Made by a program: the position numbers and the translations under genes
Origin: Pigmentiphaga humi
Lineage (GTDB): Bacteria > Pseudomonadota > Gammaproteobacteria > Burkholderiales > Burkholderiaceae_B
NCBI RefSeq assembly: GCF_900606115.1
Contig: NZ_UWPJ01000024.1
Location: 1-64,000 of the forward strand
Reading direction: 5' to 3'
Length of the DNA: 64,000 nt
Shown here: positions 6,781-45,599 of the stretch, piece after piece
Layout: the number at the start of each line of letters is the position of its first letter
How positions within the stretch are numbered: position 1 is the first letter of the stretch
Notes under the pieces: generated by a model
The model's input: only the letters and a program-made list of their open reading frames with translations
What the model was told of the DNA's origin: nothing
The model's database searches: none

Positions 6781-6789
6781 CCGGCCCGC

Positions 6790-8394: not shown

Positions 8395-8399
8395 GGTGC

Positions 8400-9161
8400 T
8401 TATCTTTTCGTGCGTGCCCGCAGGCGTTCGGTTTCAAGGGCCGATTCGATGGACGAGGCGGCCGAGAAGAGCTTGGACAGCACCGCCTGGCTGCGCCCCC
8501 CGGGCAGCCTGGACAGGGGAATGACCACGCTGAGGCTGCCCAGCACGCGCGCGCCGTCCAGCAGCGCCACCGCGATCCCCGCCAGCCCCGGATCGACCTC
8601 GCTGTGCGTCACGCAGGCCTTGGCCTGCTTGAGCGGCTCCAGCGCCGTGAGGAAGCCGTCGAAAGCCGCCGGGAAACCCGCCGCCTCGATGGCCTTGCGG
8701 TCCCGCTGCCACAACCGCTCCAGTTCGCCCTGCGGCAGGTGCGCCAGGATCACCTTGGAGGTCGCGCCGCGGTACAGCGGCATGGCGCGCCCGCGCTCGT
8801 AGCTCACCGGCGTCGCGGCATCCGTCGGCAGCTCCTGGTGGATGCACAGCACCTTGTCGCCATGGACCCTGCACAGCAGGATCGTGCCGCCGGTGTCGGC
8901 GGCCAGCCGCCGCAGCATCGAGCCGGAAGCCTGCAGCAGCGGATCGGCCAGCCGGATCTGCCGGTCCAGCTCGACGATCAGCGGCCCCAGCGCATAGCCC
9001 CGGTCCGCCACCCGCTCCAGCAGGCCGGCGGTCTCGAGCGCCTTGAGATCGCGGTAGATGCTCGCCCGCGACACGCCCAGTTCATCCATGAGCTGGGCCG
9101 GCTTGCGGACCGGATGGTCCAGGTCGAAAGACCCGAGGATGCGCAACAGTCGGTCTGACAT
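8400..9161 (-). CDS. IclR-family transcriptional regulator
   Basis: 253-residue regulator with an N-terminal winged HTH (RKPAQLMDELGVSRASIYRDLKALETAGLLER, about 19-50) and a C-terminal IclR effector domain (about 80-245: GTILLCRVHGDKVLCIHQ, then ERGRAMPLYRGATSKVILA and the SEVDPGLAGIAVAL segment). IclR proteins sense small aromatic or organic acids. It sits between the extradiol-like gene and the FAD hydroxylase gene in the same operon, so it probably controls that operon and itself. Confidence 0.92.
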   Translation of the reverse strand: MSDRLLRILGSFDLDHPVRKPAQLMDELGVSRASIYRDLKALETAGLLERVADRGYALGPLIVELDRQIRLADPLLQASGSMLRRLAADTGGTILLCRVHGDKVLCIHQELPTDAATPVSYERGRAMPLYRGATSKVILAHLPQGELERLWQRDRKAIEAAGFPAAFDGFLTALEPLKQAKACVTHSEVDPGLAGIAVALLDGARVLGSLSVVIPLSRLPGGRSQAVLSKLFSAASSIESALETERLRARTKR

Positions 9162-9168
9162 GGCCGGC

Positions 9169-9996
9169 TCAATCGCGCATGATCGCCTTGCCCCATTGGT
9201 TCAGCGTGCGCTCTTCGTGCACCCAGAGGCCAGTGGGCCGGTCCGGGGCGCAGACCTCGATCTCGGCCGAGATCTCGGCCAGGTTGCCGTCGGGATCGCG
9301 CACCATGAAAAACACGTCGTCGCCCGGGCCGTGGCGGCCGATGCCCCAGACGATGGTTTCGCGCACGGCCGCCATGTGGTCGCCCCAGTGCTTCATCGCA
9401 TCCCACGAGGTGGTCTCGAAGGATTGGTGGTCGAAGCCGGCCATGGGCGCGCGGAACAGCGCCAGGGCATGGTGCAGGCTCTCGGTGCGAAGAAAGCAGG
9501 CGCGCAGCACGCCCTCGTCGTCCTGCACGCGATCCGAAATCACGAAGCCCAGCACCTCGCCATAGAACGCCGCCATCGGCGCCGGGTCGAGCGTGCGCAG
9601 CGCGAAATGCTGCAGGTGGGCGGCGGGCAGCGCATCGGCCGCCAGCGCGGGGCGCTCGGGCGCGTGCATGAAGACGATCCGGTTGCCGTCCGGATCGCGC
9701 ACCGCCACGGCATCCTCGCAGGTCACCGGCAGGCGCGGCACCTCCGTGGCCACGCCCGCGGGCAGGCGGCCGCGGAAGGCTTCCCAACGCGCAGCATCGG
9801 CAAAAGCGTAGGCCGCATAGACCAGTTGGTTCGCAGGACCCGGCGAGACCAGCAGCAGACGCCCCTCGGCTTCGCAGATCCAGGTCTCGCCATCCTGGCG
9901 GGGAGCCATCCCGTGGCTGCGCTCATAGAACGCGGCCAGTTTCTGGGGATCGGGTGAGGTCAGATGCAAATGATGAAGTGCGCAGCCCAGTTCCAT
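9169..9996 (-). CDS. Two-domain VOC protein, type I extradiol ring-cleavage dioxygenase-like
   Basis: 275 residues with two vicinal-oxygen-chelate domains. The C-terminal domain keeps the candidate Fe(II) ligands of type I extradiol dioxygenases: His in AHLQHFALRTLD, His in GFDHQSFETTS and Glu in DGNLAEISAE, a triad of the BphC/catechol 2,3-dioxygenase kind. It would open a catechol ring next to the diol. ATG 9996 is preferred (GGAGA 6 nt upstream; the family N-terminus LHHLHLTSPDPQKLAAFYE follows) over an ATG 11 codons earlier. First gene of the operon with the IclR regulator and the FAD hydroxylase, a natural hydroxylation-then-cleavage pair. Confidence 0.85.
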   Translation of the reverse strand: MELGCALHHLHLTSPDPQKLAAFYERSHGMAPRQDGETWICEAEGRLLLVSPGPANQLVYAAYAFADAARWEAFRGRLPAGVATEVPRLPVTCEDAVAVRDPDGNRIVFMHAPERPALAADALPAAHLQHFALRTLDPAPMAAFYGEVLGFVISDRVQDDEGVLRACFLRTESLHHALALFRAPMAGFDHQSFETTSWDAMKHWGDHMAAVRETIVWGIGRHGPGDDVFFMVRDPDGNLAEISAEIEVCAPDRPTGLWVHEERTLNQWGKAIMRD

Positions 9997-10151
9997 GTCG
10001 GTCTCCGATGGATTTCTCGATGGCTGCAACTATCGGCGCTGGGCCATGATGCGTCAACGCATTTTCTCACCGGCTGAGACAAACCCGTAGGCCAAGACTG
10101 GGCGGCCAAGCCGTTTCCAGGGCTCTGCCGGGCGGCGGCCCGTACTGCGGA

Positions 10152-10182
10152 TCATTGCCCCATGGCCGGCACGGGGCAATGA
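10152..10182. other. 10-bp stem-loop downstream of a Bug gene
   Basis: Perfect inverted repeat TCATTGCCCC (10152-10161) and GGGGCAATGA (10173-10182) with an 11-nt loop. It lies 24 bp beyond the stop of the leftward Bug gene at 10207. There is no U-run, so it is a weak terminator candidate or an mRNA 3'-end stabiliser. It marks the left edge of the 10.2-20.3 kb catabolic cluster. Confidence 0.45.
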
Positions 10183-10206
10183 CGCAAGGCGATGCCGACC
10201 CAATGC

Positions 10207-11184
10207 TCAGTCGGCCGTCACCCCGGTCGCCTTGACCACTGCGCCCCATCGGGCGATTTCTTCCTTCATGAAAGCACCGAACGCCTGGGGCGTGCTCGGG
10301 GCGACTTCGAACTGCATTTCTTCGAGCTTGGCCTTCACATCGGGCATCTGCAGAATCCTCGTCAACTCGGCGTGGTAACGCCGGACGACGTCGGGAGACG
10401 TCCCGGAGCGAACGAGGAAGCCGATCCAGGCTATCGCCTCGAAGTCCTTAAAGCCGCTTTCAATCATCGTCGGCACATCAGGCGTCGCTGCAACACGCTG
10501 CCTTCCGGACGACGCAATCAGCCGCAGCCTGCCGCTGGGGACGTAGGGCAACGCATTTCCCGGCACAAGGAAAGCTGCCTTGACATTCCCGGCGACCAGG
10601 TCGGTAAGCGCGGGTCCCGCGCCTCGATACGGAACGTGCGTCATCTGCAAGCCGGCCGAGGCGCGGAACATCTCCATCGTGAGATGCGACGCGCCGCCAG
10701 TCCCTACCGATGCGTACGGAAGGCCCGGGTTCGCTTTGACGTACGCGACGAAGTCTTCGACCGAGCGCACGGGCAACGAAGGATGCACCACGAGATACTG
10801 AGACGTCGAAACGCCCATGGTCACCGGAGAGAAATCCCTGACGGGGTCGTAGGGAAGGTTCTTGAACAAGGTATTGTTCACCACCAGCGGGGCATTGACT
10901 CCGACCAGCAAGAGAGAGCCGTCCTGCGGACCCTTGGCTACGTGATCGGTTGCTATGTTTCCCCCTACACCGGGCCTGCTATCCACGATCACCGTTGTGG
11001 ACAGCGCCTGCGCCAGCTTCGGTGCGACGAGGCGCCCAAGCACGTCGGCGGTGCCGCCGGCCATCGGCACGACTACGTTGATCTGCCGAGGTGGAAACGC
11101 CGGCTGGCTTCTCGCCGCGAAACTCGCGAACAACGCGACGAGAAGCGGCACGACAAGAATCTTGCTCGAGGACAATGTGTTCAT
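10207..11184 (-). CDS. Bug-family periplasmic substrate-binding protein
   Basis: 325-residue Bug (TctC-type) extracytoplasmic receptor, the soluble part of tripartite tricarboxylate transporters that binds organic acids. Signal peptide MNTLSSSKILVVPLLVALFA, then the family start PPRQINVVVPMAGGTADVLGR, the DSRPGVGGNIATDHVAKG segment and the VPYRGAGPALTDLVAGNV loop that usually lines the ligand pocket. ATG 11184 is chosen over one five codons upstream because GGAG lies 10 nt before it. Last gene of the leftward arm (Rieske oxygenase, aldehyde dehydrogenase, Bug). No membrane components (TctA/TctB) lie in the window. Confidence 0.92.
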   Translation of the reverse strand: MNTLSSSKILVVPLLVALFASFAARSQPAFPPRQINVVVPMAGGTADVLGRLVAPKLAQALSTTVIVDSRPGVGGNIATDHVAKGPQDGSLLLVGVNAPLVVNNTLFKNLPYDPVRDFSPVTMGVSTSQYLVVHPSLPVRSVEDFVAYVKANPGLPYASVGTGGASHLTMEMFRASAGLQMTHVPYRGAGPALTDLVAGNVKAAFLVPGNALPYVPSGRLRLIASSGRQRVAATPDVPTMIESGFKDFEAIAWIGFLVRSGTSPDVVRRYHAELTRILQMPDVKAKLEEMQFEVAPSTPQAFGAFMKEEIARWGAVVKATGVTAD

Positions 11185-11292
11185 GATGCGGGACTCCATC
11201 GTATTGAGCGTGCTCGGCGAGTCGGAGTCGATCTCGCCGCAGTTGTTATCCTGGTTATTCGCCGGGCTGACAGGCCTTGGGGGCCAGCGTAC

Positions 11293-12774
11293 TTACGGCG
11301 ATTGCTCGAATGACGTGATGGTCTGGCTGTGCAAGTACTCACGGATTCCCTGCAAGCCCGACTTTCTGCCCATCCCGCTTTGCTTTACGCCGCCATAAGG
11401 CGCACGATGGTTGATGGCGAGAATGCCGTGGCTATTGATCCAGACTTGTCCGGACTCGATCCGCCGGGCTACTTCGATGGCCTCTTCCACATCCCGTCCC
11501 CAGACGGATCCACCAAGGCCAAAGCAGGTTGCGTTCGACCTGCCGATCGCCTCGTCGATGCTGTCGAACGTGCCGACGGGGACTGCTGGACAGAACTGCT
11601 CCTCCATCACGAGCCGCGCGTCGTCGGCCAGATCGGTGACCAGCGTGGGCCGCATGAAGTAGCCGTCATCGAATACCCCGGCGTCCAAGACGGTGCCCAG
11701 TTCGGACACGCTGGCGCCGCGCGTTTCGGCATCGAGAACCAGCTCTCTTGCGCGCGACAGGCCGGCCTTGCTGTGCAGCGGACCAAGCGTCACTTGCGGC
11801 AGCAGGCCGTCGCCGACGACCAGCTCGTCGATCGCCGCAGAGAATTTTTCAAGGAATTCATCCTTGCGGGATCTATGCACGTAATAGCGCTTGATCGCCA
11901 TGCATACCTGGCCGGACATCATGAATGTCGCCGTCATCATTCGCGCGATCGCCGCCTGATCGAGCACTACGTCTTTCAGCAGGATGGCGGGATCGTTGCC
12001 CCCCAGTTCGAGCGTCAAGCCCTTGATGGTTTGAGCGGCGTTCGACATGATGTGCCTGGCGGCGGGAATGCTGCCGGTGAACCCGATCTTCCCGACATCC
12101 GCGTGCGTCGTGAGCGCATCGCCGATCTCGCCAGGCAAACCCGTCACGACGTTAATAATTCCCGGCGGCAGGCTTTCGGCGAACCGGCGGACAGAATCGA
12201 TCAAGGTGAGAGGACATGATTCCGGCGGTTTCAGAACGACGCCGTTTCCGGCCAGGAGCGCGGCGACGACCTGCGTGAACGCCAGAATGTCCGGCGAATT
12301 CCAGGGCACGATCGATACGACCACGCCATAGGGCCTGGATGTCACTATCGTGCGGCCCGTTTCGCACTGGACCCGATGCTCGGCGTCGAGTTCATCGGCG
12401 AACGAGAGCGCCACGCGCTGGCGCTTCGGCACGCTGACGAGCTCCGCGCGCGCCTGGGAGAACGGTTTGCCGTTCTCGCGAACGAAAACCTCCGCGCGGG
12501 CATCGACGTCCTCCTCCAGCTTTTTCAGCCCCGCTTCGAGCGCAAGCGCCCGCTGTTTGAAGGTGAGACCTTCCCAGGCGGGCTGTGCCTTCCTGGCCGC
12601 CGCCACGGCGGCATCGACCTGGGCCGGGGTGCCTCGAACGACCATACCGACGACTTCAGCAGGCCGTGCAGGATTGCGAACTTCGAGCCGATCGGAACTG
12701 GCGATCTCCTTTCCGCCTATCAGCAGATTAGCGACTATCGGCTCTCGATGACGAGCAGCTTGATCAAGCATCAT
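11293..12774 (-). CDS. NAD(P)-dependent aldehyde dehydrogenase
   Basis: Predicted 493-residue aldehyde dehydrogenase that oxidises an aldehyde to its acid. Signature residues are present: PWNSPD (cofactor-binding loop), the general-base Glu in GLTLELGGNDPAI, the nucleophilic Cys in MMSGQVCMAIKRYY, and GGVKQSGMGR near the C-terminus. The open frame begins at a TTG at 12795, but ATG 12774 (followed by another ATG) with TGGAAA upstream is a better start. It lies 22 bp downstream of the Rieske oxygenase. With the ThDP enzyme of the other arm it could form a 2-oxo-acid to aldehyde to acid step; that pairing is inferred. Confidence 0.9.
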   Translation of the reverse strand: MMLDQAARHREPIVANLLIGGKEIASSDRLEVRNPARPAEVVGMVVRGTPAQVDAAVAAARKAQPAWEGLTFKQRALALEAGLKKLEEDVDARAEVFVRENGKPFSQARAELVSVPKRQRVALSFADELDAEHRVQCETGRTIVTSRPYGVVVSIVPWNSPDILAFTQVVAALLAGNGVVLKPPESCPLTLIDSVRRFAESLPPGIINVVTGLPGEIGDALTTHADVGKIGFTGSIPAARHIMSNAAQTIKGLTLELGGNDPAILLKDVVLDQAAIARMMTATFMMSGQVCMAIKRYYVHRSRKDEFLEKFSAAIDELVVGDGLLPQVTLGPLHSKAGLSRARELVLDAETRGASVSELGTVLDAGVFDDGYFMRPTLVTDLADDARLVMEEQFCPAVPVGTFDSIDEAIGRSNATCFGLGGSVWGRDVEEAIEVARRIESGQVWINSHGILAINHRAPYGGVKQSGMGRKSGLQGIREYLHSQTITSFEQSP

Positions 12775-12796
12775 GGTTTTCCAGGTTGGTTTCAAG

Positions 12797-14065
12797 TCAA
12801 ACGCTGAAAACGGGCTTTTCCAGCGATGTCAAAGCATCTTTGGCCCATTCCTCCGCCTTCGCGCCGCGATCCAGGAGCACCGATGCTGCGCGAACACGCT
12901 GCGACATCGCATCCAGCGCCGGAGGTTCGGCGCCGCCGTCGAGCTCTCGCGCCGCCCGCGCCAGCATCCTGCGCGCCATGACGATGGCCCGGTCTGTGGC
13001 AACCAGGTGCTCCTTCGAATAATCCTGGATCGGACCCATGCTTTCTTGCAGCGAAGCATCCTGCACCGAGAACCCCTCCACCCCGCTGAAAGACATCTTG
13101 TCCTTCTGCGCCTTGCGGTCGACGAGCCAATCGTTGCTCGGGTTCGCCAACGGGACGAATGTGCCGGGGATGTACTTCACGTGGATGCCTTTGCCCTCTC
13201 TCATGGCTTGGAGCTCATCGTCAGGCAGCGGACGATCCGGCAGGAAGTTGATGCTCCACGCCCAGCAGCTCTCGTCGTCGATGGGAATCCACATGTGGCC
13301 GCCCAATGCATGAGGGCCGAACGGCGGGATCAAGGTAAACCACGGGAATATCCATTGCGTAATGCGCCAGTAGTGTGAGTCTTCTTCACCATTTCGCCGG
13401 CCGAAGATCGTCAAGCCGTGCGCGGCCTCTTCGATATCGAAAACGGCGTTCGTATCGGCTTTGATGTACTTGTTGGCCTCCGCCTGCCTGTGCATCGGGT
13501 CCTGGTCCAGTTCGAACCGATGAACCCAGGACGCATGCGTCGTGTCGATGCCTCCTTCCATTGCCTGCAGCCAGCCGCTTTCCTGATAGCGCTTGCTGAC
13601 GAACCGGTGGCTGGCCGGAACCATGCACCATTCGAGCTCCGGGGGCTCGGGCATCCGGTCGGACTGGCCCATATACGCCCACAGGACGTCGCCCCGCTCG
13701 ATACATGGATAGGACCTGATGTGCATCCTGTCTGCGAGATGCGGAACCGACGGCAACTCCATGCAGCGACCGTCGACGCCGAACTTCCAACCGTGATAAG
13801 AACAGCGAATCCCCCCCTCCTCGTTTCGGCCCAGAAAGAGCGAGACGCCACGATGCGCGCAGAACTCGTCCACCAGCCCTGGTCGACCGTCGGTGTCGCG
13901 AAAGGCGATCAGCTTCTCGCCAAGTATCTTCACCCGCACGGGTGGGCAATCAGGCTCCGCAATTTCCGATGCGAGCATCACCGGAACCCAGAATCGGCGC
14001 ATCAACTTGCCCATGGGTGTATCGGGACCCGTGCGCACCAACAGTTCTGCAGTCACCTTGTCCAT
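12797..14065 (-). CDS. Rieske non-heme iron oxygenase, phthalate 4,5-dioxygenase-like
   Basis: 422-residue oxygenase of the single-subunit VanA/phthalate 4,5-dioxygenase branch. The Rieske [2Fe-2S] ligands are in CAHRG (about 68-72) and CSYHGWKFG (about 87-95); the mononuclear Fe ligands are in GGIDTTHASWVH (D-x3-H-x4-H type). The opening GPDTPMGKLMRRFWVPVML is typical of this branch. ATG 14065 has GAGGA 6 nt upstream; the frame runs 22 codons further up into the promoter and operator DNA, so the longer form is rejected. These enzymes need a reductase supplying electrons, and none is encoded nearby. First gene of the leftward arm. Confidence 0.9.
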   Translation of the reverse strand: MDKVTAELLVRTGPDTPMGKLMRRFWVPVMLASEIAEPDCPPVRVKILGEKLIAFRDTDGRPGLVDEFCAHRGVSLFLGRNEEGGIRCSYHGWKFGVDGRCMELPSVPHLADRMHIRSYPCIERGDVLWAYMGQSDRMPEPPELEWCMVPASHRFVSKRYQESGWLQAMEGGIDTTHASWVHRFELDQDPMHRQAEANKYIKADTNAVFDIEEAAHGLTIFGRRNGEEDSHYWRITQWIFPWFTLIPPFGPHALGGHMWIPIDDESCWAWSINFLPDRPLPDDELQAMREGKGIHVKYIPGTFVPLANPSNDWLVDRKAQKDKMSFSGVEGFSVQDASLQESMGPIQDYSKEHLVATDRAIVMARRMLARAARELDGGAEPPALDAMSQRVRAASVLLDRGAKAEEWAKDALTSLEKPVFSV

Positions 14066-14114
14066 AAGTTCCTCAAAGAGTGGGAGAGTGGAGCAGCGAA
14101 CCAAGTCGCTTTTA

Positions 14115-14159
14115 TGTATGTATACATACAATATTAAACAGTGGCAAGACGATCGTCAA
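14115..14159 (-). promoter_or_regulatory. Promoter and 16-bp palindromic operator of the Rieske oxygenase arm
   Basis: On the minus strand, TTGACG (14159-14154), a 17-bp spacer and TAATAT (14136-14131) form a sigma70-type promoter. Immediately downstream of the -10 lies the perfect 16-bp palindrome TGTATGTATACATACA (14115-14130), where a bound repressor would block the start site. The gene starts 50 bp further on. The same half-site occupies the same place in the opposite promoter at 14242-14283. Confidence 0.65.
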
Positions 14160-14194
14160 TAAAATCAGCTCGGTGAATATCCATGAAAAACATT

Positions 14195-14211
14195 GATATG
14201 TATGGCATATC
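14195..14211. promoter_or_regulatory. Third inverted repeat in the divergent spacer
   Basis: GATATG-TATGG-CATATC lies midway between the two divergent promoters and contains TATGTATG, part of the half-site found in the two promoter operators. It could be an auxiliary operator allowing looping, or a site for another regulator. The rest of the 14066-14402 spacer is AT-rich and holds no gene. Confidence 0.35.
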
Positions 14212-14241
14212 CTATTCAAAAATGCTGATGTAACTTTCCGA

Positions 14242-14283
14242 TTGACAGAGCATCAACCCATCTTTATTGTATGTATGAATACG
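14242..14283 (+). promoter_or_regulatory. Promoter and operator of the monooxygenase-ThDP arm
   Basis: TTGACA (14242-14247), 17-bp spacer, TATTGT (14265-14270). Overlapping the -10 is TGTATGTATGAATACG (14268-14283), matching the 16-bp palindrome of the opposite promoter in all 8 bases of its first half and 5 of 8 in the second. The start codon at 14403 is about 120 nt downstream, leaving a long leader. Confidence 0.65.
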
Positions 14284-14402
14284 TTTAAACGCACGACCAC
14301 TAGCCAAACGGCCGAGTTCCGCATTGCCTCGGTTGCGTTGCCGGGGCAGACCGTGTGGATGAGGGTCGTTCGGACCGGTTTTAGAGAGCCTTACAGGAAA
14401 TC

Positions 14403-15596
14403 ATGAATACGAAGCTTCGCGTCACCATCATTGGAGCCGGCCTCGGCGGCCTGGTCGCGGCCATCGCGTCCAAACGCGCCGGATTCGAGGTCCGCGGTTT
14501 TGAACAAGCGAAGGCATTCGGCGAAGTCGGCGCCGGAATCCAGCTCGGGCCGAATGCGGTAAAAGTCCTGCGAGCGCTCGATCTCGAGCAAGGCCTGTTC
14601 GAGTTCGGCGCACAGCCTCGAAATCATGTTGCCCGCAGCTGGAAATCAGGACGCGAACTGTTTCGCTCGCCCACTCGGGATGCATGCGTAGAACAATTCG
14701 GGTCTCCCTTCTTCCAGGTGCAGCGCTCGGATCTCCACCAGCACCTGCACGGCGCGCTTCCCGATGACACGTTTCTGCTGAACAAGAAGATGACCGGGTT
14801 CACCCAGAGCGAGAACTCGGTCGTGGCGCGCTTTGACGATGGAACCGAGGTCGAATCCGACGTCCTCGTCGGTGCGGACGGCATCCATTCCACCGTCCGG
14901 AATGAGCTTCTAGGAGCGGGGAAGCCGCGCTACACGGGAGTCATTTGCTGGCGCGGCCAAGTCGACGCCTCCCGTTTGCCGTCCGACCTCATCCCTCCGG
15001 ATTCCTTGAACTGGATGGGGCCAGGCGGCTGTGTGGTGCACTATTTCGTGCGGCCGGGACGGCTGGTGAATTGGATCGCACATCGGCAAGTCGACGTCTG
15101 GGCGGACGAATCGTGGTCCAGGCCCGGCGACAAGAATGAGCTGCTGGAAGCCTTCACAGGATGGCACCCGTCGCTGCTGCAGATGTTCGAAGCCACGGAA
15201 ACCTGCTTCAAGTGGGCGCTGTTCGACCGCGATCCGCTTCCGACCTGGACCAAAGGCCGAGTCACGCTCCTTGGCGATAGCGCGCACCCCATGCTGCCTT
15301 TCTTTGCGCAAGGAGGCGCGATGGCGATGGAAGACGGCTACGTCCTTGCCCGGGCGCTCGCGCGCAATCCCGATCCGATTGCAGGTCTGCAAGCCTATGA
15401 GGCGCTGCGGAAAGAAAGATCCACGCGCGTGCAGCTCAGTTCACGGGCGCGCGCCGATTCTATTCAAACGACTTCGCGGCTGGCCCAGGTCAAGCGCGAC
15501 ATCGGATTCAAGGTCGATCAATGGTTGCGTCCCGCAGGGGCCATCCGGCGCGCCGATTGGATCTACGGCTACGACGCGACGGCGGTGTCCGCATGA
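14403..15596 (+). CDS. FAD-dependent monooxygenase, salicylate/3-hydroxybenzoate hydroxylase-like
   Basis: 397-residue class A flavin monooxygenase of the salicylate 1-hydroxylase, 3-hydroxybenzoate 6-hydroxylase and 6-hydroxynicotinate 3-monooxygenase group. FAD motifs: VTIIGAGLGGLVAAIASKRAG (residues 7-27), EVGAGIQLGPNAVKVLRAL (41-59), DG motif LVGADGIHSTVR, and GD motif LLGDSAHPMLPFFAQGGAMAMED. It would hydroxylate, possibly decarboxylate, an aromatic or N-heteroaromatic acid. AGGA sits 6 nt before the ATG. Its stop overlaps the start of the ThDP enzyme (ATGA), so the two are translationally coupled. First gene of the rightward arm. Confidence 0.88.
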   Translation: MNTKLRVTIIGAGLGGLVAAIASKRAGFEVRGFEQAKAFGEVGAGIQLGPNAVKVLRALDLEQGLFEFGAQPRNHVARSWKSGRELFRSPTRDACVEQFGSPFFQVQRSDLHQHLHGALPDDTFLLNKKMTGFTQSENSVVARFDDGTEVESDVLVGADGIHSTVRNELLGAGKPRYTGVICWRGQVDASRLPSDLIPPDSLNWMGPGGCVVHYFVRPGRLVNWIAHRQVDVWADESWSRPGDKNELLEAFTGWHPSLLQMFEATETCFKWALFDRDPLPTWTKGRVTLLGDSAHPMLPFFAQGGAMAMEDGYVLARALARNPDPIAGLQAYEALRKERSTRVQLSSRARADSIQTTSRLAQVKRDIGFKVDQWLRPAGAIRRADWIYGYDATAVSA

Positions 15597-17350
15597 ACGC
15601 GCGCCTGTCGTATTCGAGAGAGCTTGTCGAAGTGCCCGAAGGGGATGCAGGCGATGCCATCGTCGCGGCCCTGGCAGCGGGTGGAGTCGACTATGTGTTC
15701 TTCACGTCGGGGTCGGAAATCTGCTTCTATCAAGAAGCGATCGCCAAGGCCAGGGCAACCGGCCGCCCGGCGCCGAAGCTGATCGTCATGACGCACGAGC
15801 ACGCCAGTTTGAATGCCGCGCTCGGGTACAGCGCCGTGACGGGCAAACCTTCTGCGACGGCGGCTCATGTAGACGCCGGAACCTTGCATCATGGCGCTGC
15901 AATCCACACCACAATGCATGCGCACCTGCCCATCATCATGACGGCGGGCTTTCCTCCCACCAGCGCAACGGGATCCACGCGGGCGGCCAGAAACACCGGT
16001 GCGCACCTGTGGCTGCAGGAGACCTTCGACCAGCACTCGGTCGTCCGCCAGTACGTAAAATGGGATCACCAACTGAAGGGGCATGACGATCCCGGCCTCC
16101 AGGTAAGCCGCGCGATTCAAGTGGCGACGTCCGAGCCTTGCGGGCCCGTCTATCTTTCGGTGGCTCCCGAGGTCTCGATGGCTGCCAGGCAGGCGAGCAG
16201 CTTTCCCAGCGCCCGGGCGCTGGGAGCCGCGACACCGCCCGCGCCGGATCCGGATGGAATCGAAGAGATCGTCGCAAGAATTCTTGCTGCGGAGCGTCCC
16301 TGTCTGATCGTCTCCGGCTCGGGGCGAAATCCCGCGACCGTCCCGGAACTGGTGTCTCTGTGCGAGCTGCTGGGGCTGCGCGTCGTTCACGGGGCGACGC
16401 AAAGCTATCTGAGCTTCCCTTTGGCGCACCCGTTGATGCAGATCGAGTCCGATCTGCGGAATTGCGACGTGGCCGTAGTGCTGGAGACCGACGTTCCGTG
16501 GATGCCTGGAGAGCGGGCGCCGGGTGGCGATGCGTGGGTCGCCGTTCTCGGCCTCGATCCCATCAAGGGCAAGATTCCCACGTACGAGTTCACGGCCGAT
16601 ATGCGGCTTACCAGCGACTCGCTTCGCGCCATCCGGGCCCTTCGGGCGGAGGCGGACAGAACCATGACGCAGCGTGACCGCGATCGCGCCGCGTCGCGGC
16701 GAGAAGCTGCGGGGCAGGAGTCGAATGCGCAAAGAGAGGCCTTGTCCAGACTCGTACCGCCGGTCGAACCCGGCGCTCCCATTCACCCCTTGCATGTCAG
16801 CCAGGCGCTTGGCGAGTTGCTGAGCAGGGACTCGATCGTCTTTGACGACACCCTGCCCCACAACCGGATCCATCAGTTTCTTCGCAACGACGCGCCAGGC
16901 AGCTTCTTTCACACGCCGGGCACCAGCGGCGGCTGGGCGGCCGGGGCGGCATTCGGGGCCAGCCTGGGCGCGCCCGGAAAAGACATCGTGGCGATAACAG
17001 GCGACGGTTTCTACATGTTCTCGACACCGACGCCGGCTCTTTGGGCCGGCGTCCGGTACGCAGCACCGTTCCTGACGGTGGTCTACCAGAACCGAAGCTG
17101 GGCTACGGGCACAGTGCGGCTGGCGTCCATGTACCCCGATGGCCACGCACTGAAGGCCGACTGTGACGGCGGTTACTTCGATCCTCCGATGGATTTCGCG
17201 CTGGAGGCCGAGTCTGCGGGCGCGTACGGCGAGAACGTCCGCGAAGCATTTCAACTCAAGCCGGCGCTGGAGCGTGGCCTGAGGGCCGTCAGGAGCGGCA
17301 GACCCGCGGTGATTTCCGTTTGGCTGCCACGCCACCTGCACAAAGATTAA
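15593..17350 (+). CDS. ThDP-dependent enzyme, acetolactate synthase/decarboxylase superfamily
   Basis: Predicted 585-residue thiamine-diphosphate enzyme with the three-domain plan of acetolactate synthase and 2-oxo-acid decarboxylases. The cofactor-activating Glu is in MTHEHASLNAALGYS (about 62-76); the ThDP/Mg motif is GDGFYMFSTPTPALW followed by VVYQNRSW (about 463-500). The start is ATG 15593, overlapping the monooxygenase stop as ATGA; a longer frame from 15521 lies inside the monooxygenase gene and is rejected. It probably breaks a C-C bond next to a carbonyl of a catabolic intermediate. The aldehyde dehydrogenase of the opposite arm is a candidate partner. Reaction and substrate unknown. 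Confidence 0.82.
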   Translation: MNARLSYSRELVEVPEGDAGDAIVAALAAGGVDYVFFTSGSEICFYQEAIAKARATGRPAPKLIVMTHEHASLNAALGYSAVTGKPSATAAHVDAGTLHHGAAIHTTMHAHLPIIMTAGFPPTSATGSTRAARNTGAHLWLQETFDQHSVVRQYVKWDHQLKGHDDPGLQVSRAIQVATSEPCGPVYLSVAPEVSMAARQASSFPSARALGAATPPAPDPDGIEEIVARILAAERPCLIVSGSGRNPATVPELVSLCELLGLRVVHGATQSYLSFPLAHPLMQIESDLRNCDVAVVLETDVPWMPGERAPGGDAWVAVLGLDPIKGKIPTYEFTADMRLTSDSLRAIRALRAEADRTMTQRDRDRAASRREAAGQESNAQREALSRLVPPVEPGAPIHPLHVSQALGELLSRDSIVFDDTLPHNRIHQFLRNDAPGSFFHTPGTSGGWAAGAAFGASLGAPGKDIVAITGDGFYMFSTPTPALWAGVRYAAPFLTVVYQNRSWATGTVRLASMYPDGHALKADCDGGYFDPPMDFALEAESAGAYGENVREAFQLKPALERGLRAVRSGRPAVISVWLPRHLHKD

Positions 17351-17377
17351 CTCCCCCCACGAACCAGGACTGACATC

Positions 17378-18352
17378 ATGGACGCTTTCCGTCGGCATTC
17401 CCTACGCCTGCTGCTTTCGCTTGCCGCTGCCTGTAGCTTCCCGGCAGCCGCCCAGACTTTCCCGTCCCAGCCGATCACGATCATTCTTCCATATTCGCCG
17501 GGCGGTGCCGTGGACGCGATGGCGCGTCTCCTCGCAACAAAGCTCGGGGAACGGCTGCAAGTGCCTGTCGTGGTCAAGAATGTCGCAGGCGCCAGCGGAG
17601 CCATAGGGATGGCAGAGGTTGCCCGAGCCGCAGGGGACGGTTACACCCTTTTGTACGCCCCCAGCACCATCGCCATTCTGCCCGCTTTCTATCACAAGCT
17701 GAGCTTCGACCCCGGGAAGGACCTGGTGCCAGTGAGCCAGTTCCTGGAGGGCACGTTGCTGGTCGCGGCGAATCCGAATACCGACATCAAATCGCTGCAG
17801 GAACTCATCTCGCAAGCCAAGGCCAGACCTGGAAAACTCAACTTCGGCTCTTCAGGAGTTGCCGATACCCTGCAATTGGGTATCGAGATGCTGAAGGTAG
17901 ACACAGGTACCGACATGGTGGCTGTACCTTACAAGGGCCAAGGGCCCATGCTTGTCGCCCTCCTGGCCGGGGAGGTGGATGTGGCGGTCGTGTCGGTCCA
18001 GCTCTCGCTGCCGTATATCCGCAATGGGAAGCTGCGCGCACTGGCGGTAACCAGCCCGAACCGCTCGCCCGCATTGCCCGAGGTTCCGACCGTGAGCGAG
18101 CTTGTTCCGGGATACGAGCTCGCCAGTTGGCATGGCGTCTTTGCTCCGGCGAGCATGCCTCCAGATCTCGTGCGACGCCTCCAACGCGAAATTGCCGAGG
18201 TCAGCAAAGATCCCGCGGTCCGAAAGACCGTAGAAGATGCGGGAAACGCGGTCCTGGGAAGCACTTCCGAAGCATTTAGGAAAAAATTCGAGGCCGAGAT
18301 CGTAAAGTACAAGAATGTGGTCAAGCAGGCACAGCTGCCACTCCAGGATTGA
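17378..18352 (+). CDS. Bug-family periplasmic substrate-binding protein
   Basis: 324-residue Bug receptor. Signal peptide (LLLSLAAACSFPAAAQT near residues 11-27), then PSQPITIILPYSPGGAVDAMAR, VVVKNVAGASGAIGMAEVARA and VPYKGQGPMLVALLAGEVDVA, all family hallmarks. It lies 27 bp downstream of the ThDP enzyme in the same operon and 24 bp before the cupin gene, so it likely binds this pathway's substrate. The cluster's other Bug (10207) is clearly different in sequence, suggesting two ligands or two uptake routes. Confidence 0.92.
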   Translation: MDAFRRHSLRLLLSLAAACSFPAAAQTFPSQPITIILPYSPGGAVDAMARLLATKLGERLQVPVVVKNVAGASGAIGMAEVARAAGDGYTLLYAPSTIAILPAFYHKLSFDPGKDLVPVSQFLEGTLLVAANPNTDIKSLQELISQAKARPGKLNFGSSGVADTLQLGIEMLKVDTGTDMVAVPYKGQGPMLVALLAGEVDVAVVSVQLSLPYIRNGKLRALAVTSPNRSPALPEVPTVSELVPGYELASWHGVFAPASMPPDLVRRLQREIAEVSKDPAVRKTVEDAGNAVLGSTSEAFRKKFEAEIVKYKNVVKQAQLPLQD

Positions 18353-18376
18353 TCCAGGACCGGCAAGGAGAGCGTC

Positions 18377-18895
18377 ATGAATGAACTCACGAAAGGGCCG
18401 TCTCGGGTGATCGGGCCCGACGAGGGCCAATCTTTCTGGCAGCCCGGCCCGCATCACGGCCATATGACCATCAAAGTCGGGCCGGGCGTCGAGGACGACT
18501 CCGATCCCGGATTCGCCTTCGGCACCCAGGTGCTGCCGCCGGGATGCTACGTCAGAGAGCACGGCCATGCGCGAAACACCGAGATTCTCTTTATCTATGA
18601 GGGCACGGGAAGTGCAGAGCTCGACGGTGTTTCGCAACGCATCGGGCCCGGCTCGACGATTCTGCTCGGCAAGTATGTCGGGCACACCATCACCAATGAC
18701 GGCGCCGTCGACATGAAGTTCGCCTGGTTCTTCACGCCGCCCGGCCTGGACGACGTCATTCGGGCCGTAGGCATTCCGAAGTCCGAGGGTGACAGCCCGC
18801 CCCAAAGCTTCGAGCGCCCGGCAAACATGCCGGAGATACTGAAAGCGGCGGGCTACGCCACTGCCGAAGAGATAGCCGCCGCGGTGCGAGAATGA
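18377..18895 (+). CDS. Single-domain cupin protein
   Basis: 172-residue cupin. The metal-binding signature is intact: REHGHARNTEILFIYEG gives H-x-H and Glu, and GKYVGHTI supplies the second-motif His, so a metal site (Fe or Mn) is likely. The central barrel spans about 45-135 and a helical tail follows (PEILKAAGYATAEEIAAAV). Cupins in aromatic pathways are ring-cleavage dioxygenases, isomerases or decarboxylases; this one is shorter than gentisate dioxygenase and cannot be assigned. The rightward arm has no other obvious ring-cleaving enzyme, so it is the main candidate. The stop overlaps the hydrolase start (ATGA). Confidence 0.8.
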   Translation: MNELTKGPSRVIGPDEGQSFWQPGPHHGHMTIKVGPGVEDDSDPGFAFGTQVLPPGCYVREHGHARNTEILFIYEGTGSAELDGVSQRIGPGSTILLGKYVGHTITNDGAVDMKFAWFFTPPGLDDVIRAVGIPKSEGDSPPQSFERPANMPEILKAAGYATAEEIAAAVRE

Positions 18896-19707
18896 GCGGC
18901 GTCGTTTACGGCAACATGAGCCGCGCCGAGTTGGATGCGGCCTACAACAACCAGGCAGCCCACCGGGACTTCGCTGCGCAAACCGCGATGTGGCGGTCTC
19001 GGTCCGACGCGCTGCGCGAAGAATGCAACCCTCGATCGAATCTGCGTTATGGCGAGCGCCCGCGGGCGGTGCTCGATTACTATCCGGGCAACGCCGCCGA
19101 GGGACCGCTGCTCGTCTTCGTGCATGGCGGCTACTGGCAGGGCGGCTCCAAAGAGTCCGTGGGTTTTCTGGCGCGCGGACCGTTGGCGGTCGGATTCTCT
19201 GTCGCGCTGATCGAGTACACCATCGCTCCCCAGGCCAAGATCGGCGACATGATCGAGGAGGTGGGAGAAGCCCTGCGCTGGCTTCGCTCGCACGCTCGCC
19301 AGCTCGGATTTGACGAGCGCCGCATTGTCATGGCGGGGCACTCTGCCGGCGCGCATCTGATGTGCAACCTGATGGGCGAGGTACCGCTGCTTGGCGGCGT
19401 GGCAATCAGTGGAATCTACGATCTCGAACCGATCCGGTACTCCTACCTCAACGAACAACTGGGCCTGAACGAACAAGACGTCCGCAGTTTCAGCCCGATC
19501 CTGATGCCGCGGACCTCCAGCGCCACCCTGGTAGTGGCGGTAGGGGCCGACGAACTGGACGAACTGATTCGCCAATCCCGCGACTTCTCCCGGGCCTGGA
19601 ATGCTCCGCTCCTCGAGCTGCGCGGGCGCGACCACTTCACGATTCTGGAAGAACTCGCCGGCAGCGACGGGCAGTTGTGTCGCGCGCTGCGCCAACTGGC
19701 TGCTTGA
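18892..19707 (+). CDS. Alpha/beta hydrolase, arylformamidase (kynurenine formamidase)-like
   Basis: 271-residue alpha/beta hydrolase. Oxyanion-hole motif HGGYWQGG at 78-85; nucleophile elbow GHSAG with Ser at 151; catalytic His in RGRDHFTI at about 248, with an acidic residue in VGADELDEL. The HGGYW motif and overall plan match arylformamidases and related carbamate/formamide hydrolases, which release formate from N-formyl aromatics. That would fit ring cleavage of an N-heteroaromatic compound, but an ester or other amide is also possible. Last enzyme of the rightward operon, overlapping the cupin gene by four bases. Confidence 0.8.
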   Translation: MSGVVYGNMSRAELDAAYNNQAAHRDFAAQTAMWRSRSDALREECNPRSNLRYGERPRAVLDYYPGNAAEGPLLVFVHGGYWQGGSKESVGFLARGPLAVGFSVALIEYTIAPQAKIGDMIEEVGEALRWLRSHARQLGFDERRIVMAGHSAGAHLMCNLMGEVPLLGGVAISGIYDLEPIRYSYLNEQLGLNEQDVRSFSPILMPRTSSATLVVAVGADELDELIRQSRDFSRAWNAPLLELRGRDHFTILEELAGSDGQLCRALRQLAA

Positions 19708-19766
19708 GCACTCGTTCGGGATCGGAACGCCGCCCTCGGGATGCTTTGGCCGGCCAGGTCTGCGCC

Positions 19767-19772
19767 TATAAT
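19767..19772 (+). promoter_or_regulatory. -10 element of the MarR gene
   Basis: Consensus TATAAT in otherwise GC-rich DNA, 28 bp before the MarR ATG. No good -35 is present at 16-18 bp (CTTTGG region). AGGAG at 19781-19785 is the only Shine-Dalgarno-like sequence and sits 15 nt before the ATG, longer than usual. The MarR gene therefore probably has its own promoter, separate from the catabolic operon. Confidence 0.45.
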
Positions 19773-19800
19773 CTCCGGACAGGAGTACGCCAGACCAAGC

Positions 19801-20331
19801 ATGATCCAGTTTCCCGACGACCTTCACAATCTTTCGCACCGCCCCGGTTTTCTTCTCCGCAAAGCGCACCAGGTAGCGGTAGCGATCTTTGGCGAGGAGA
19901 TCGGCAAACTATCGTTGACGCCTCCTCAGCACAACGTGCTGTCCGCGCTGATGGCCAATCCCGGTTGCCACCAGACCGAGGTGGGACGGATAGTGGGGTA
20001 CGACCGAGCCACGGTCGGCGCCGTACTGGCAGGACTGGAGTCGAAAGGCTTCATAGAAAGAACCGACTCGGACAAGGATCGTCGCTTGAAGACATTGCTG
20101 CTTACCAAGAAGGGGAAATCTCTCCTGGAAGCTTCCAATGCGGCGCTGGATCAAATCAATCAGCGGATCCTGGAACCTCTCGCAGAACACGAGCGTCCCA
20201 TGTTTCTCGCCCTGCTTGCGCGCGTCGCCTATCCTGCGGGAGCCCCGGCGCGACCAGGCCTGGACGCCGCTCCGGCGCCTCGCCGTCCGGGCAATAGGAA
20301 CGACTCGAACACGGCGACGCTTCCGGATTGA
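19801..20331 (+). CDS. MarR-family transcriptional regulator
   Basis: 176-residue MarR regulator with the winged HTH at about 38-100: LTPPQHNVLSALMANPGCHQTEVGRIVGYDRATVGAVLAGLESKGFIERTDSD, then the DKDRRLKTLLLTKKGKSLL wing. The C-terminal 25 residues are Pro/Arg/Asn-rich and extend past the usual dimerisation helix. It lies just after the rightward catabolic arm and is the only regulator between 10.2 and 20.4 kb, so it is the best candidate to bind the TGTATGTA operators in both divergent promoters. MarR sites are short palindromes of this size; the link is inferred. Confidence 0.9.
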   Translation: MIQFPDDLHNLSHRPGFLLRKAHQVAVAIFGEEIGKLSLTPPQHNVLSALMANPGCHQTEVGRIVGYDRATVGAVLAGLESKGFIERTDSDKDRRLKTLLLTKKGKSLLEASNAALDQINQRILEPLAEHERPMFLALLARVAYPAGAPARPGLDAAPAPRRPGNRNDSNTATLPD

Positions 20332-20445: not shown

Positions 20446-20529
20446 CATCGGCACGCCGCGGCGTCCCATCCAGGACGCCCTTCAGCATGACGGGACAGCC
20501 CGGATGAGCCGCCCGCCGTCACCTATCGG

Positions 20530-23115
20530 TCAGACACCGACAGAATCCGCCACATCCTTGAAGTCGGGGATCTGGTCGAAATTCATGTAGCGATAGATGG
20601 TCTTCTCGTGCTCGGCCAGGATGCCGGTCTCGGCCATGTACTCTTCCTTGGTCGGGATGCGGCCCAGGCGCGAGCAGATGGCGGCGAGTTCGGCGGAACC
20701 CAGGTAGACGTTCGAGTTCTTGCCCAGGCGGTTCGGGAAGTTGCGGGTGCTGGTGGACATCACCGTCGCGCCTTCGCGGACCTGCGCCTGGTTGCCCATG
20801 CACAGCGAGCAGCCCGGCATTTCCATGCGTGCGCCGGCCGAACCCAGGACGCCGTAGTGGCCTTCCTCGGTCAGTTGCTGCTGGTCCATCTTGGTCGGCG
20901 GTGCGACCCACAGCTTGACCGGAATGTCGCGCTTGCCTTCCAGCAGCTTGGAGGCTGCGCGGAAGTGGCCGATGTTGGTCATGCAGCTGCCGATGAACAC
21001 TTCGTCGATCTTGGCGCCGGCCACGTCGGACAGCGTCTTGACGTCGTCCGGATCGTTCGGGCACGCCACCAGGGGCTCGTGCACGTCGGCCAGGTCGATT
21101 TCGATGACGGCGGCGTATTCGGCGTCGGCATCGGGTTCCAGCAGCTGCGGGTTGGCCAGCCAGGCTTCCATGGCCTTGATGCGGCGGCCGATCGAGCGCT
21201 CGTCTTCATAGCCGTTGGCGATCATCCACTTCAGCAGCGTGATGTTGCTGGTGAGGTATTCGATGATCGGTTCCTTGTTCAGGCGCACCGTGCAGCCGGC
21301 GGACGAACGCTCGGCCGAGGCGTCGGACAGTTCGAACGCCTGTTCCACCTTCAGGTCGGGCAGGCCTTCGATTTCGAGGATGCGGCCCGAGAAGATGTTC
21401 TTCTTGCCCTTCTTCTCGACGGTCAGCAGGCCTTGCTGGATCGCGTAGTAGGGAATGGCGTTGACCAGGTCGCGCAGCGTGACGCCGGGCTGCAGCTTGC
21501 CCTTGAAGCGGACCAGCACCGATTCCGGCATGTCCAGCGGCATGACGCCCGTGGCGGCGGCGAAGGCGACCAGGCCCGAGCCGGCCGGGAAGCTGATGCC
21601 GATGGGGAAGCGGGTGTGCGAGTCGCCGCCGGTGCCGACCGTGTCGGGCAGGACCATGCGGTTCAGCCACGAGTGGATCACGCCGTCGCCCGGGCGCAGC
21701 GAGATGCCGCCGCGGTTGCTCATGAACTCGGGCAGCGTGTGGTGCGTCTTGACGTCGACGGGCTTGGGATAGGCGGCGGTGTGGCAGAACGACTGCATCA
21801 CCAGGTCGGCGGAGAAGCCCAGGCAAGCCAGGTCTTTCAGCTCGTCGCGCGTCATGGGGCCGGTGGTGTCCTGGCTGCCGACCGAGGTCATGCGCGGTTC
21901 GCAGTAGGTGTCCGGACGGACGCCCTGGCCTTCCGGCAGGCCGCAGGCGCGGCCGACCATCTTCTGGGCCAGCGTGTAGCCCTTGCCGGTGTCGGCCGGG
22001 TTCTTGGGCAGGCGGAACAGGGTCGAGGGCGGCAGGCCGAGGGCCTCGCGCGCCTTGGCGGTCAGGCCGCGGCCGACGATCAGCGGAATGCGGCCGCCGG
22101 CGCGCACTTCGTCGAACAGCACGTCGGACTTGATCTCGAACTCGGCGATCACTTCGCCGTTCTTGAGAGCCTTGCCGTCGAACGGACGCAGTTCGATGAC
22201 GTCGCCCATCTCCATCTTGGAGACGTCCACTTCGATGGGCAGGGCGCCGGCGTCTTCCATGGTGTTATAGAAGATCGGGGCGATCTTGCCGCCCAGGCAC
22301 ACGCCGCCGAAGCGCTTGTTCGGCACGAAGGGAATGTCCTCGCCGGTCCACCACAGCACGGAATTGGTCGCGGACTTGCGCGACGAGCCGGTGCCGACCA
22401 CGTCGCCGACGTAGGCGACCAGGTTGCCCTTTTCCTTCAGGTCATTGAGCAGCTCGATCGGGCCGACCTTGCCCGGATCCTGCGGCTCGATGCCGGGACG
22501 GGGGTTCTTGAGCATGGCCAGCGCATGCAGCGGAATGTCGGGACGGCTCCAGGCGTCGGGCGCGGGCGACAGGTCGTCGGTGTTGGTCTCGCCGGTCACC
22601 TTCAGGACCGTGAGCGTCAGGCTCTGCGGCACTTCGGGACGGCTGGTGAACCACTCGGCCTCGGCCCAGCTCTTGATCACGGCCTGGGCGTTGGCGTTGC
22701 CCTGGTCGGCCTTTTCCTTCACGTCGTGGAAGGCGTCGAACATCAGCAGGGTTTTCTTCAGGCCGCCGGCGGCGATGGTGCCGACCTGGGCGTCGTCCAG
22801 CAGTTCGATCAGCGCGCTGATGTTGTAGCCGCCCAGCATGGTGCCGAGCAGCTCGGTCGCCTTGGCGCGATCGATCAGCGAACAGACTTCCTTGCCCAGC
22901 GCCACGGCAGCCAGGTAGGAGGCCTTGACCTTGGCGGCGTCGTCCACGCCGGCGGGTACGCGGTGGGTCAGCAGCTCGACCAGCTCTTTCTCTTCGCCAG
23001 CGGGCGGGTTCTTGAGCAGCTCGATCAAGTCGGCGGTTTGCTGCGCCGAAAGCGGCAGCGGCGGGATGCCGAGCGCGGCCCGCTCGGCGACGTGTTGGCG
23101 GTAGGATTCAAGCAT
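20530..23115 (-). CDS. acnB: Aconitate hydratase B
   Basis: AcnB interconverts citrate and isocitrate in the TCA cycle with a [4Fe-4S] cluster, and can act as an RNA-binding iron sensor when the cluster is lost. The 861-residue product has the normal AcnB length and domain order: N-terminal HEAT-like helical domain ([21 protein letters not shown] at the start), the swivel domain ([23 protein letters not shown]), then the catalytic domains. Cluster cysteines are in the [15 protein letters not shown] and [14 protein letters not shown] segments. Some aconitases also hydrate 2-methylaconitate. It has its own promoter and terminator and appears independent of the flanking catabolic genes. Confidence 0.98.
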
Positions 23116-23156
23116 TGCAGTGTCCCGTTCTGGTTGGGATGGGGGGATACCGCGGG

Positions 23157-23206
23157 ATTGTAGGACTATGGGCAGGCGGCTGCAAGCTCTTATATCTTAT
23201 ATAAGA
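23157..23206 (-). promoter_or_regulatory. acnB promoter with adjacent AT-rich palindrome
   Basis: On the minus strand a -10 TACAAT (23162-23157) lies 17 bp after TTGCAG (23185-23180). Just upstream is the perfect 12-bp palindrome TCTTATATAAGA (23195-23206), preceded by another copy of the half-site TCTTATAT (23188-23195). The palindrome is conspicuous in GC-rich DNA and is a good operator candidate. Its AT-rich form is reminiscent of GntR-type sites, but the regulator is not identified. Confidence 0.55.
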
Positions 23207-23241
23207 CATGCGCAACCCCGCGCCAGGCCGCATGGCGGGCG

Positions 23242-33506: not shown

Positions 33507-33511
33507 GCCTG

Positions 33512-45584: not shown

Positions 45585-45599
45585 GGCCAACTCCTTTTT

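Follow-up and report, generated by a model that had tools for sequence, protein, structure and literature searches.

We analyzed a 64,000-nucleotide stretch of Pigmentiphaga humi DNA (contig NZ_UWPJ01000024.1, positions 1 to 64,000; hereafter the window), in which positions 10207-20331 hold nine open genes arranged as two operons that diverge from about 14.07-14.40 kb. Each gene matches a Pfam family of its own class above the curated cut-off, in agreement with the classes named in the original prediction, which had been made from the letters of this DNA. The leftward operon (minus strand) encodes, in order, a Rieske oxygenase resembling isophthalate dioxygenase (IPDO) (12797-14131, with a likely true start at 14065 by alignment to IPDO), an aldehyde dehydrogenase (ALDH; 11293-12795; PF00171, 433.2 bits), and a TctC-type solute-binding protein, BugA (10207-11199; PF03401, 228.6 bits). 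The rightward operon (plus strand) encodes a single-component flavin adenine dinucleotide (FAD) hydroxylase (14403-15596; PF01494), a thiamine diphosphate (ThDP)-dependent enzyme of family NF006203 (15593-17350, start inferred), a second TctC-type protein, BugB (17378-18352; PF03401, 230.3 bits), a small cupin (18377-18895; PF07883, 38.5 bits), an arylformamidase-like alpha/beta hydrolase (18892-19707; BD-FAE and Abhydrolase_3), and a MarR-family regulator (about 19801-20331, start inferred; MarR_2, 53.7 bits). The FAD hydroxylase and ThDP genes, with the latter starting at the inferred position 15593, overlap by 4 bases, as do the cupin and hydrolase genes, so the members of each pair are probably translated together.

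The nine genes form a discrete block, a conclusion that is well supported by comparison with related loci. When gene neighborhoods were compared, as the original prediction had proposed, the locus of Burkholderiales bacterium 67-32 (L009) was the only complete relative found, with all nine genes in identical order, and partial sets were present in Pusillimonas noertemannii DSM 10065 (L010) and in a further locus, L011, a recurrence that goes beyond chance. DNA similarity to L009 extends over 10205-14298 (83% identity) and 14373-20300 (85%), with encoded proteins as similar as 85% for BugA, 94% for MarR, and 95% for the cupin (MarR is 79% identical in L010, and the cupin 55% in L011). Left of 10205, no match was found to the 4.8 kb of L009 sequence on that side; on the right, similarity starts again in acnB (window 20479-23219, 92% identity), which in L009 is separated from the block by a Fic-like gene recognized by eye. 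Plain GC content in 2-kb windows was 0.579-0.643 for starts 10001-19001 compared to 0.690-0.699 for starts 6001-8001, in line with the lower GC claimed earlier, although windows at 4001 (0.635) and 28001 (0.627) are equally low. GC content at third codon positions (GC3) separates the block from the rest of the window better, with 0.678-0.779 in the nine genes versus 0.843-0.911 in the eleven other window genes measured. Within the 64-kb window no tRNA was found. Among 399 genomes from the order to which the window belongs, the ThDP gene was detected at E 1e-100 or better only in the genome of the window itself, and a plasmid search for the enzyme returned 2 distant records. Altogether, the discrete L009 boundaries, the GC3 contrast, and the rarity of the ThDP gene within the order indicate that this island was probably acquired horizontally.

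The two operons also share a promoter motif, which we consider well supported. Two copies of the palindrome TTRTATGTATNNATACATAYAA lie in the divergent promoter, one on the Rieske/ALDH side (14110-14131, 1 mismatch) and one on the FAD hydroxylase side (14267-14288, 2 mismatches, with counterparts in L009 and L010), with none elsewhere in the window at up to 3 mismatches and 0.00 copies expected by chance (100 shuffles). The same promoter of L009 contains two copies of a shorter palindrome core, and six core matches occur at three places in L010, namely the Rieske-ThDP promoter and the regions upstream of marR and of an ABC transporter gene. No operator match was detected in L011, whose MarR is only 41% identical. 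Across the whole P. humi genome, three core matches were found at up to 2 mismatches, all of them in the divergent promoter of the island, and no missing pathway step was located under the same operator elsewhere at this threshold. Because the palindrome pair is conserved in L009 and L010, both of which also carry the MarR gene, these patterns suggest that MarR binds the predicted operator pair and that both operons form one regulon. The operator copy preceding the L010 transporter gene likewise suggests that this transporter is the uptake system there.

This arrangement bears on the two Bug proteins, which are 32% identical to each other and had been taken earlier to imply two transported compounds. 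That conclusion does not follow, since both operons share a promoter with a conserved operator pair and since L010, in which no relative of either Bug was detected, carries TRAP-type and ABC-type transporter genes instead (by eye). The best solved match of BugB is 2dvz, a putative exported protein, followed by Bug27 and terephthalate-binding proteins; relatives of known structure do not discriminate among ligands.

Among proteins of solved structure, the Rieske oxygenase is most similar to IPDO from Comamonas testosteroni KF1 (9ina; 625 bits, 62.2% identity), and in a tree of 14 rows the enzymes of the window, L009, and L010 form the sister group of IPDO and the Comamonas endophytica enzyme with support of 100/99, some other forks being open and long branches occurring elsewhere in the tree. 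Eleven pocket sites were compared, chosen from the IPDO study (PMC12445078), which, like the other literature cited here, was available in excerpt. Nine of these are as in IPDO (R234, H257, F249, I246, I294, F333, G172, T175, and D174), and both carboxylate-binding residues, R234 and H257, are kept in the window, L009, and L010. The two substitutions, V178A and L198N, are common to all three, and the ortho-side gate formed by V178 in IPDO therefore differs. According to the excerpts, the R234A and H257F mutations abolished IPDO activity, while the V178A variant retained activity on isophthalate and did not gain activity on phthalate by that change alone (PMC12445078). An isophthalate-type pocket is thus well supported by sequence comparison, and the assignment as a phthalate-dioxygenase-like oxygenase was sound.

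Neither a dihydrodiol dehydrogenase of the short-chain dehydrogenase/reductase (SDR) type nor a PDR/VanB reductase was matched among the nine genes; both lie near the oxygenase in the Comamonas cluster (L043). An iph-type reductase at 56% identity is encoded elsewhere in the genome, where a protocatechuate 3,4-dioxygenase also scores above its cut-off. The missing dehydrogenase suggests, but does not prove, a substrate whose diol re-aromatizes through loss of a group. The 5.12-Mb genome contains 16 LigB-family matches and 38 matches to the Rieske enzyme of the window (itself included, and at least two of them fragments of a single frame), and its host is apparently a very rich aromatic degrader.

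The ThDP enzyme is a single chain of 585 amino acids that passes the NF006203 model (471.3 bits versus a cut-off of 456), named in NCBIfam only 'thiamine pyrophosphate-requiring protein', and that fails the benzoylformate decarboxylase equivalog NF005485 (126.4 versus 493 bits). A genome scan yielded 26 related ThDP loci, 17 of them with at least 4 kb on both sides, and their neighbors were surveyed by tblastn with chosen reference proteins. Rieske genes were found in six loci (L009, L010, L011, L020, L027, and L030), and an ALDH gene accompanies the ThDP gene, directly adjacent or close by, in four of the 26 (L009, L010, L020, and L030). The Rieske enzymes differ in kind: L009 and L010 encode the isophthalate type, and L030, with an 80% relative in L020, the benzoate/anthranilate type (386.6 bits to benA, below cut-off), while the enzyme of L027 is AndAc-like (458 bits, below cut-off) and that of L011 GbcA/HcaE-like (below cut-off). 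Five of the 26 loci carry a Rieske gene no more than 4 kb from the ThDP gene against about 1.2 expected, and 2.9 would be expected across all available flank; the expectation uses the Rieske density of the P. humi genome, which is unusually rich in such genes, and is a rough control. Since the loci are not independent (L009; L020/L030), we treat this co-occurrence as a pattern and not as a statistic.

Other partners of the ThDP gene vary. Class A FAD hydroxylase relatives occur in L009, L011, L014, and L028, the last two only 31-33% identical, and a more distant relative in L021 was left out of the count. The alphaproteobacterial loci L014 and L028 are flanked by Bug genes and a FAD hydroxylase of the NF005720 type (507.2 bits in L014, over the cut-off; the L028 copy is 85% identical to it). 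Hydrolases of the PF04199 type were matched in four loci, namely L010, L012, and, at 30-31%, L025 and L026. In L010 and L012 the sole NCBIfam match of these proteins is arylformamidase, far below cut-off, and the L011 hydrolase is allantoinase/hydantoinase-like, also below cut-off. A combination of ThDP gene, PF04199 hydrolase, and similar NMT1-type transporter genes is seen in L012 (8959-16987, by Pfam) and L010 (6208-15254, by eye). L024 and L027 belong to Eremiobacterota metagenome-assembled genomes, in which acyl-CoA-dehydrogenase-like genes (by eye) are also near, along with the AndAc-like Rieske gene in L027. The simplest chemistry that would fit across these loci begins with hydrolysis; a 2-oxo acid is then decarboxylated, the aldehyde is oxidized, and the aromatic acid that results is attacked.

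For the FAD hydroxylase, the best solved matches are tropone 2-monooxygenase (8rqh, 241.8 bits) and 6-hydroxynicotinate 3-monooxygenase, or NicC (8uiq, 231.5 bits). None of the best 25 of 57 matched NCBIfam models reaches its cut-off, the top one being 3-hydroxybenzoate 6-monooxygenase (267.8 versus 459 bits). At E 1e-95 or better, relatives were present in two of the 399 genomes, as a second copy in P. humi itself and in genome G098, and are 46 and 47% identical. Both have an Amdase-family gene within about 4 kb, which we take to be maleate-isomerase-like, and the G098 neighborhood adds an isochorismatase-family gene and an alpha/beta hydrolase gene; presumably NicX-like genes, matched by no family model, also lie near both. 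Altogether, nic-type families (maleate isomerase, isochorismatase-family amidase, and deformylase) occur near the relatives in L064 and partly in L065, and no match to them was found in the cluster of the window. The second P. humi copy (L065, at 502000-519000 of contig C22 in genome G000), near amidase and Amdase-family genes, probably belongs to a separate pyridine-type pathway. The nearest relatives thus sit in nicotinate-type neighborhoods, which plausibly favors an N-heteroaromatic substrate; the branch is no proof of substrate, because tropone 2-monooxygenase is also the top solved match of the G098 enzyme.

The hydrolase carries the motifs HGGYWQ and GHSAGA (by eye), the former of which we assume to be typical of arylformamidases. 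Its relatives at E 1e-60 or better are confined to 5 of the 399 genomes, P. humi included, and allophanate-hydrolase or amidase-type genes lie no more than about 6 kb from three of the five non-window copies (one, in G131, by eye), which points loosely to amide chemistry. Together with the FAD hydroxylase neighborhoods, the arylformamidase-like character of this enzyme keeps the earlier suggestion of an N-heteroaromatic compound plausible. The N-formyl intermediate from which that suggestion had been drawn is conjectural; in the iad auxin locus, the enzyme annotated as kynurenine formamidase has been put forward as a broad amidase (PMC12633357, in excerpt).

The cupin has a complete metal motif by eye, but its best solved match reaches only 9e-6, and no gentisate-dioxygenase match was found in NCBIfam. 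At E 1e-25 or better, 6 of the 399 genomes, P. humi included, have a relative. In the flanks of six other copies, tblastn, used alone for the G105 stretches, found no relatives of the ThDP, Rieske, hydrolase, or MarR proteins of the window; a FAD hydroxylase relative (41%) lies about 8.4 kb from one copy, an ALDH (33%) about 5 kb from one, and three have Bug genes. The cupin was not retained as a proven ring-cleaving dioxygenase, and the ring cleavage envisaged in the original prediction is at most a candidate role. For ALDH, none of the best 25 of 42 matched NCBIfam models reaches its cut-off, and no PDB match was obtained at 1e-100, a threshold that is uninformative here.

We tentatively favor, at somewhat less than even confidence, a reading in which the MarR-controlled and probably horizontally acquired island encodes a single route for the breakdown of a carboxylated aromatic acid that is probably N-heteroaromatic or N-bearing; the N-heteroaromatic character as such is moderately supported by the sequence comparisons above. 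As we infer the order of steps, BugA and BugB would take up the acid, and the FAD hydroxylase and cupin would act upstream, oxidizing or opening the heterocycle. The hydrolase would then cut an amide or lactam, and the ThDP enzyme would decarboxylate the aryl or heteroaryl 2-oxo acid thus exposed. ALDH would convert the resulting aldehyde to a substituted acid of the isophthalate type. The Rieske enzyme, with electrons presumably supplied by an unlinked reductase, would dihydroxylate this acid. Because the cluster lacks a dihydrodiol dehydrogenase, aromaticity might be restored spontaneously by departure of a leaving group (for example, CO2 together with an amino group in the ortho position, as happens with anthranilate), leaving a protocatechuate-like catechol for other enzymes of the cell.

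Several observations weigh against this reading. No cluster of proven function was found with the gene set of the island, and the aminoisophthalate step is a chemical inference only. The hydrolase scores higher against 'Lipase 1' (9n8r, 216.8 bits) and a putative esterase (2pbl, 101.0 bits) than against kynurenine formamidase (4e11, 89.2 bits, 3e-24), and the label given to it at first fits moderately. Solved ThDP relatives are distant; the best match, a weak one, is benzoylformate decarboxylase, but enzymes of that kind and an ancestral acetolactate synthase score alike at 68-70 bits. In the survey of 26 ThDP loci (17 of which have at least 4 kb on both sides), no Rieske gene was detected in 20, the cupin appeared in two (L009 and L011), and the alpha/beta hydrolase in one (L009). 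L010 lacks the FAD hydroxylase, the cupin, and the alpha/beta hydrolase, L011 lacks ALDH and an isophthalate-type Rieske gene, and because each carries a different partial set, the two halves of the island can exist apart. The genome-wide operator count is not significant by itself, since the reversed control pattern gave 4 matches versus 3 for the real one. Finally, L024 and L027 have a gentisate 1,2-dioxygenase near the ThDP gene (505.1 and 509.8 bits versus a cut-off of 442.1), which a gentisate-type alternative fits equally well.

That alternative, unlikely in our view, is a carbocyclic route without nitrogen. Para-hydroxylation by the FAD enzyme would turn a substituted isophthalate or hydroxybenzoate into a gentisate-like product, whose ring the cupin would cleave; after the hydrolase has cut an ester, lactone, or C-C bond, the 2-oxo acid pieces would pass to the ThDP enzyme and ALDH. 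This route draws on the benzene dicarboxylate pocket of the Rieske enzyme, on the top NCBIfam model of the FAD hydroxylase, although far below cut-off, and on the gentisate dioxygenases just mentioned, which are cupins. The cupin of the window, however, is small and matches no such model, the FAD enzyme is closest in solved structures to tropone and hydroxynicotinate enzymes with relatives in nicotinate-type neighborhoods, and the hydrolase resembles esterases and formamidase with amide-type genes near three of its five relatives.

A pyridine-dicarboxylate route of the nicotinate kind is rather unlikely. Here the FAD enzyme would perform decarboxylative hydroxylation, the cupin would replace NicX, the hydrolase would replace NicD, and the ThDP enzyme would remove the carboxylate beside the ring nitrogen as LumK/LumL do. 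The Amdase-family genes beside both FAD hydroxylase relatives, and the isochorismatase-family and hydrolase genes in G098, speak for it, as does the general chemistry by which 2,6- and 3,5-pyridinedicarboxylates are shaped like isophthalate; LumK/LumL, moreover, decarboxylate a quinoxaline carboxylate (excerpts of PMC12746152). The same excerpts describe two proteins of 20 and 23 kDa, compared to one chain of 585 amino acids in the island, where no gene of those nic families was matched and where this route leaves no clear role for ALDH.

It is improbable that two unrelated pathways adjoin, with the left operon (Bug, ALDH, and Rieske) serving an isophthalate-like acid and the right operon something else. 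L011, which has the FAD, ThDP, BugB, and cupin genes and a MarR without ALDH and an IPDO-like Rieske gene, would fit such a split. Yet L010 joins ALDH and Rieske genes to ThDP and MarR genes without the FAD hydroxylase, cupin, and hydrolase; the operator pair lies in one divergent promoter that is conserved in L009 and matched in the corresponding promoter of L010; and homology and composition mark one block of nine genes. We judge it very improbable that the island is one of the known pathways for isophthalate, nicotinate, auxin (iad), or lumichrome under odd annotation, for although single enzymes resemble those of each, no iph-type SDR or reductase, nic-type partner, iadF/G/H class, or lum P450 or xanthine-oxidase class was matched among the nine genes.

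Beyond this island, an unlikely but broader proposal is that NF006203 ThDP enzymes are widespread uncharacterized aryl- or heteroaryl-glyoxylate decarboxylases with interchangeable upstream ring hydrolases and downstream benzoate-family Rieske oxygenases. The island Rieske enzyme, its pocket opened by V178A, would then have a new activity: needing no dehydrogenase, it would turn an amino- or hydroxy-isophthalate directly into a protocatechuate-type catechol, with CO2 and the ortho group being lost. Should the favored reading of one route for a carboxylated, probably nitrogen-bearing acid be true, the island would represent a route to the degradation of carboxylated (N-)aromatic acids that has not been described before, would point to a function for the NF006203 family, and would provide a natural V178A relative of isophthalate dioxygenase that research on phthalate-type pollutants could use. 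With the operator pair and a named relative, P. noertemannii DSM 10065, the proposal can be tested directly.

Elsewhere in the window, a separate catabolic group with high GC3, unlike the island, lies at 6790-10029 on the minus strand and includes an MhpA-like FAD hydroxylase and an IclR regulator (both by eye) and an extradiol/glyoxalase-family protein. A second ThDP-enzyme-like gene (by eye), also with high GC3, is found at 44043-45590 on the minus strand, and sulfatase-like genes (by eye) at 32058-33557 and 38009-39622, one of which adjoins an MhpA-like FAD hydroxylase gene.

The island is real and coherent, and apparently undescribed: the enzyme classes are each known, and their combination appears new. 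In the excerpted open-licence literature on related pathways, no described pathway matched its gene set, as the original prediction had held of pathways it recognized, and nothing useful was found in open-licence literature on dipicolinate or on P. noertemannii clusters. Altogether, the earlier interpretation is partly supported. An isatin or indole substrate was set aside as a settled answer and kept as one possibility only. Its attraction lay in the PF04199 hydrolase and in SDR, StyA-like, and flavin-reductase genes of L010 that resemble iifB-C-D of the iif indole cluster, an oxygenase-flavin reductase pair plus an SDR (PMC6221969, in excerpt). None of the six L010 operator matches, however, is near the StyA genes, and isatin is possibly a dead end in iif (PMC6221969).

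The nic cluster offers functional parallels in its MarR regulator and its deformylase-like hydrolase. The island FAD hydroxylase resembles NicC (231.5 bits) but scores higher against tropone 2-monooxygenase (241.8 bits), and it has Gln at the site of a His in the solved chain 5eow, as does 8uiq. No NicX-, NicE-, or NicF-type gene was matched in the island, whose hydrolase is of another type.

The iad auxin (indole-3-acetic acid, IAA) locus of Variovorax shares a Rieske enzyme, an amidase annotated as kynurenine formamidase, and MarR control, and C8H7NO3 and C7H7NO are given as likely intermediates before anthranilate (PMC12633357 and PMC9613470, in excerpt). It differs in large and small Rieske subunits with a reductase, in an acyl-CoA synthase and a thiolase, and in iadA/iadB, which are homologues of indolepyruvate ferredoxin oxidoreductase (PMC9613470). 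The lum lumichrome cluster of Nocardioides simplex similarly unites, in one N-heteroaromatic pathway, hydrolases, a ThDP decarboxylase, a Rieske dioxygenase, and a cupin that appears to be the hydratase (PMC12746152). Its ThDP enzyme is the two-protein LumK/LumL, its alpha/beta Rieske enzyme has a ferredoxin and a reductase, P450 and xanthine-oxidase-type steps are present, and the excerpts mention no FAD hydroxylase of the island type. No ThDP beta subunit, ferredoxin, or reductase was matched among the nine island genes, and the arrangement of LumK/LumL with LumA-D does not recur there. Compared to the iph clusters encoding IPDO (L043), the island has V178A, L198N, and ALDH in place of the SDR dehydrogenase and PDR/VanB reductase, and resembles them in a sister Rieske clade, in nine of eleven pocket sites, and in the Bug genes carried by both.

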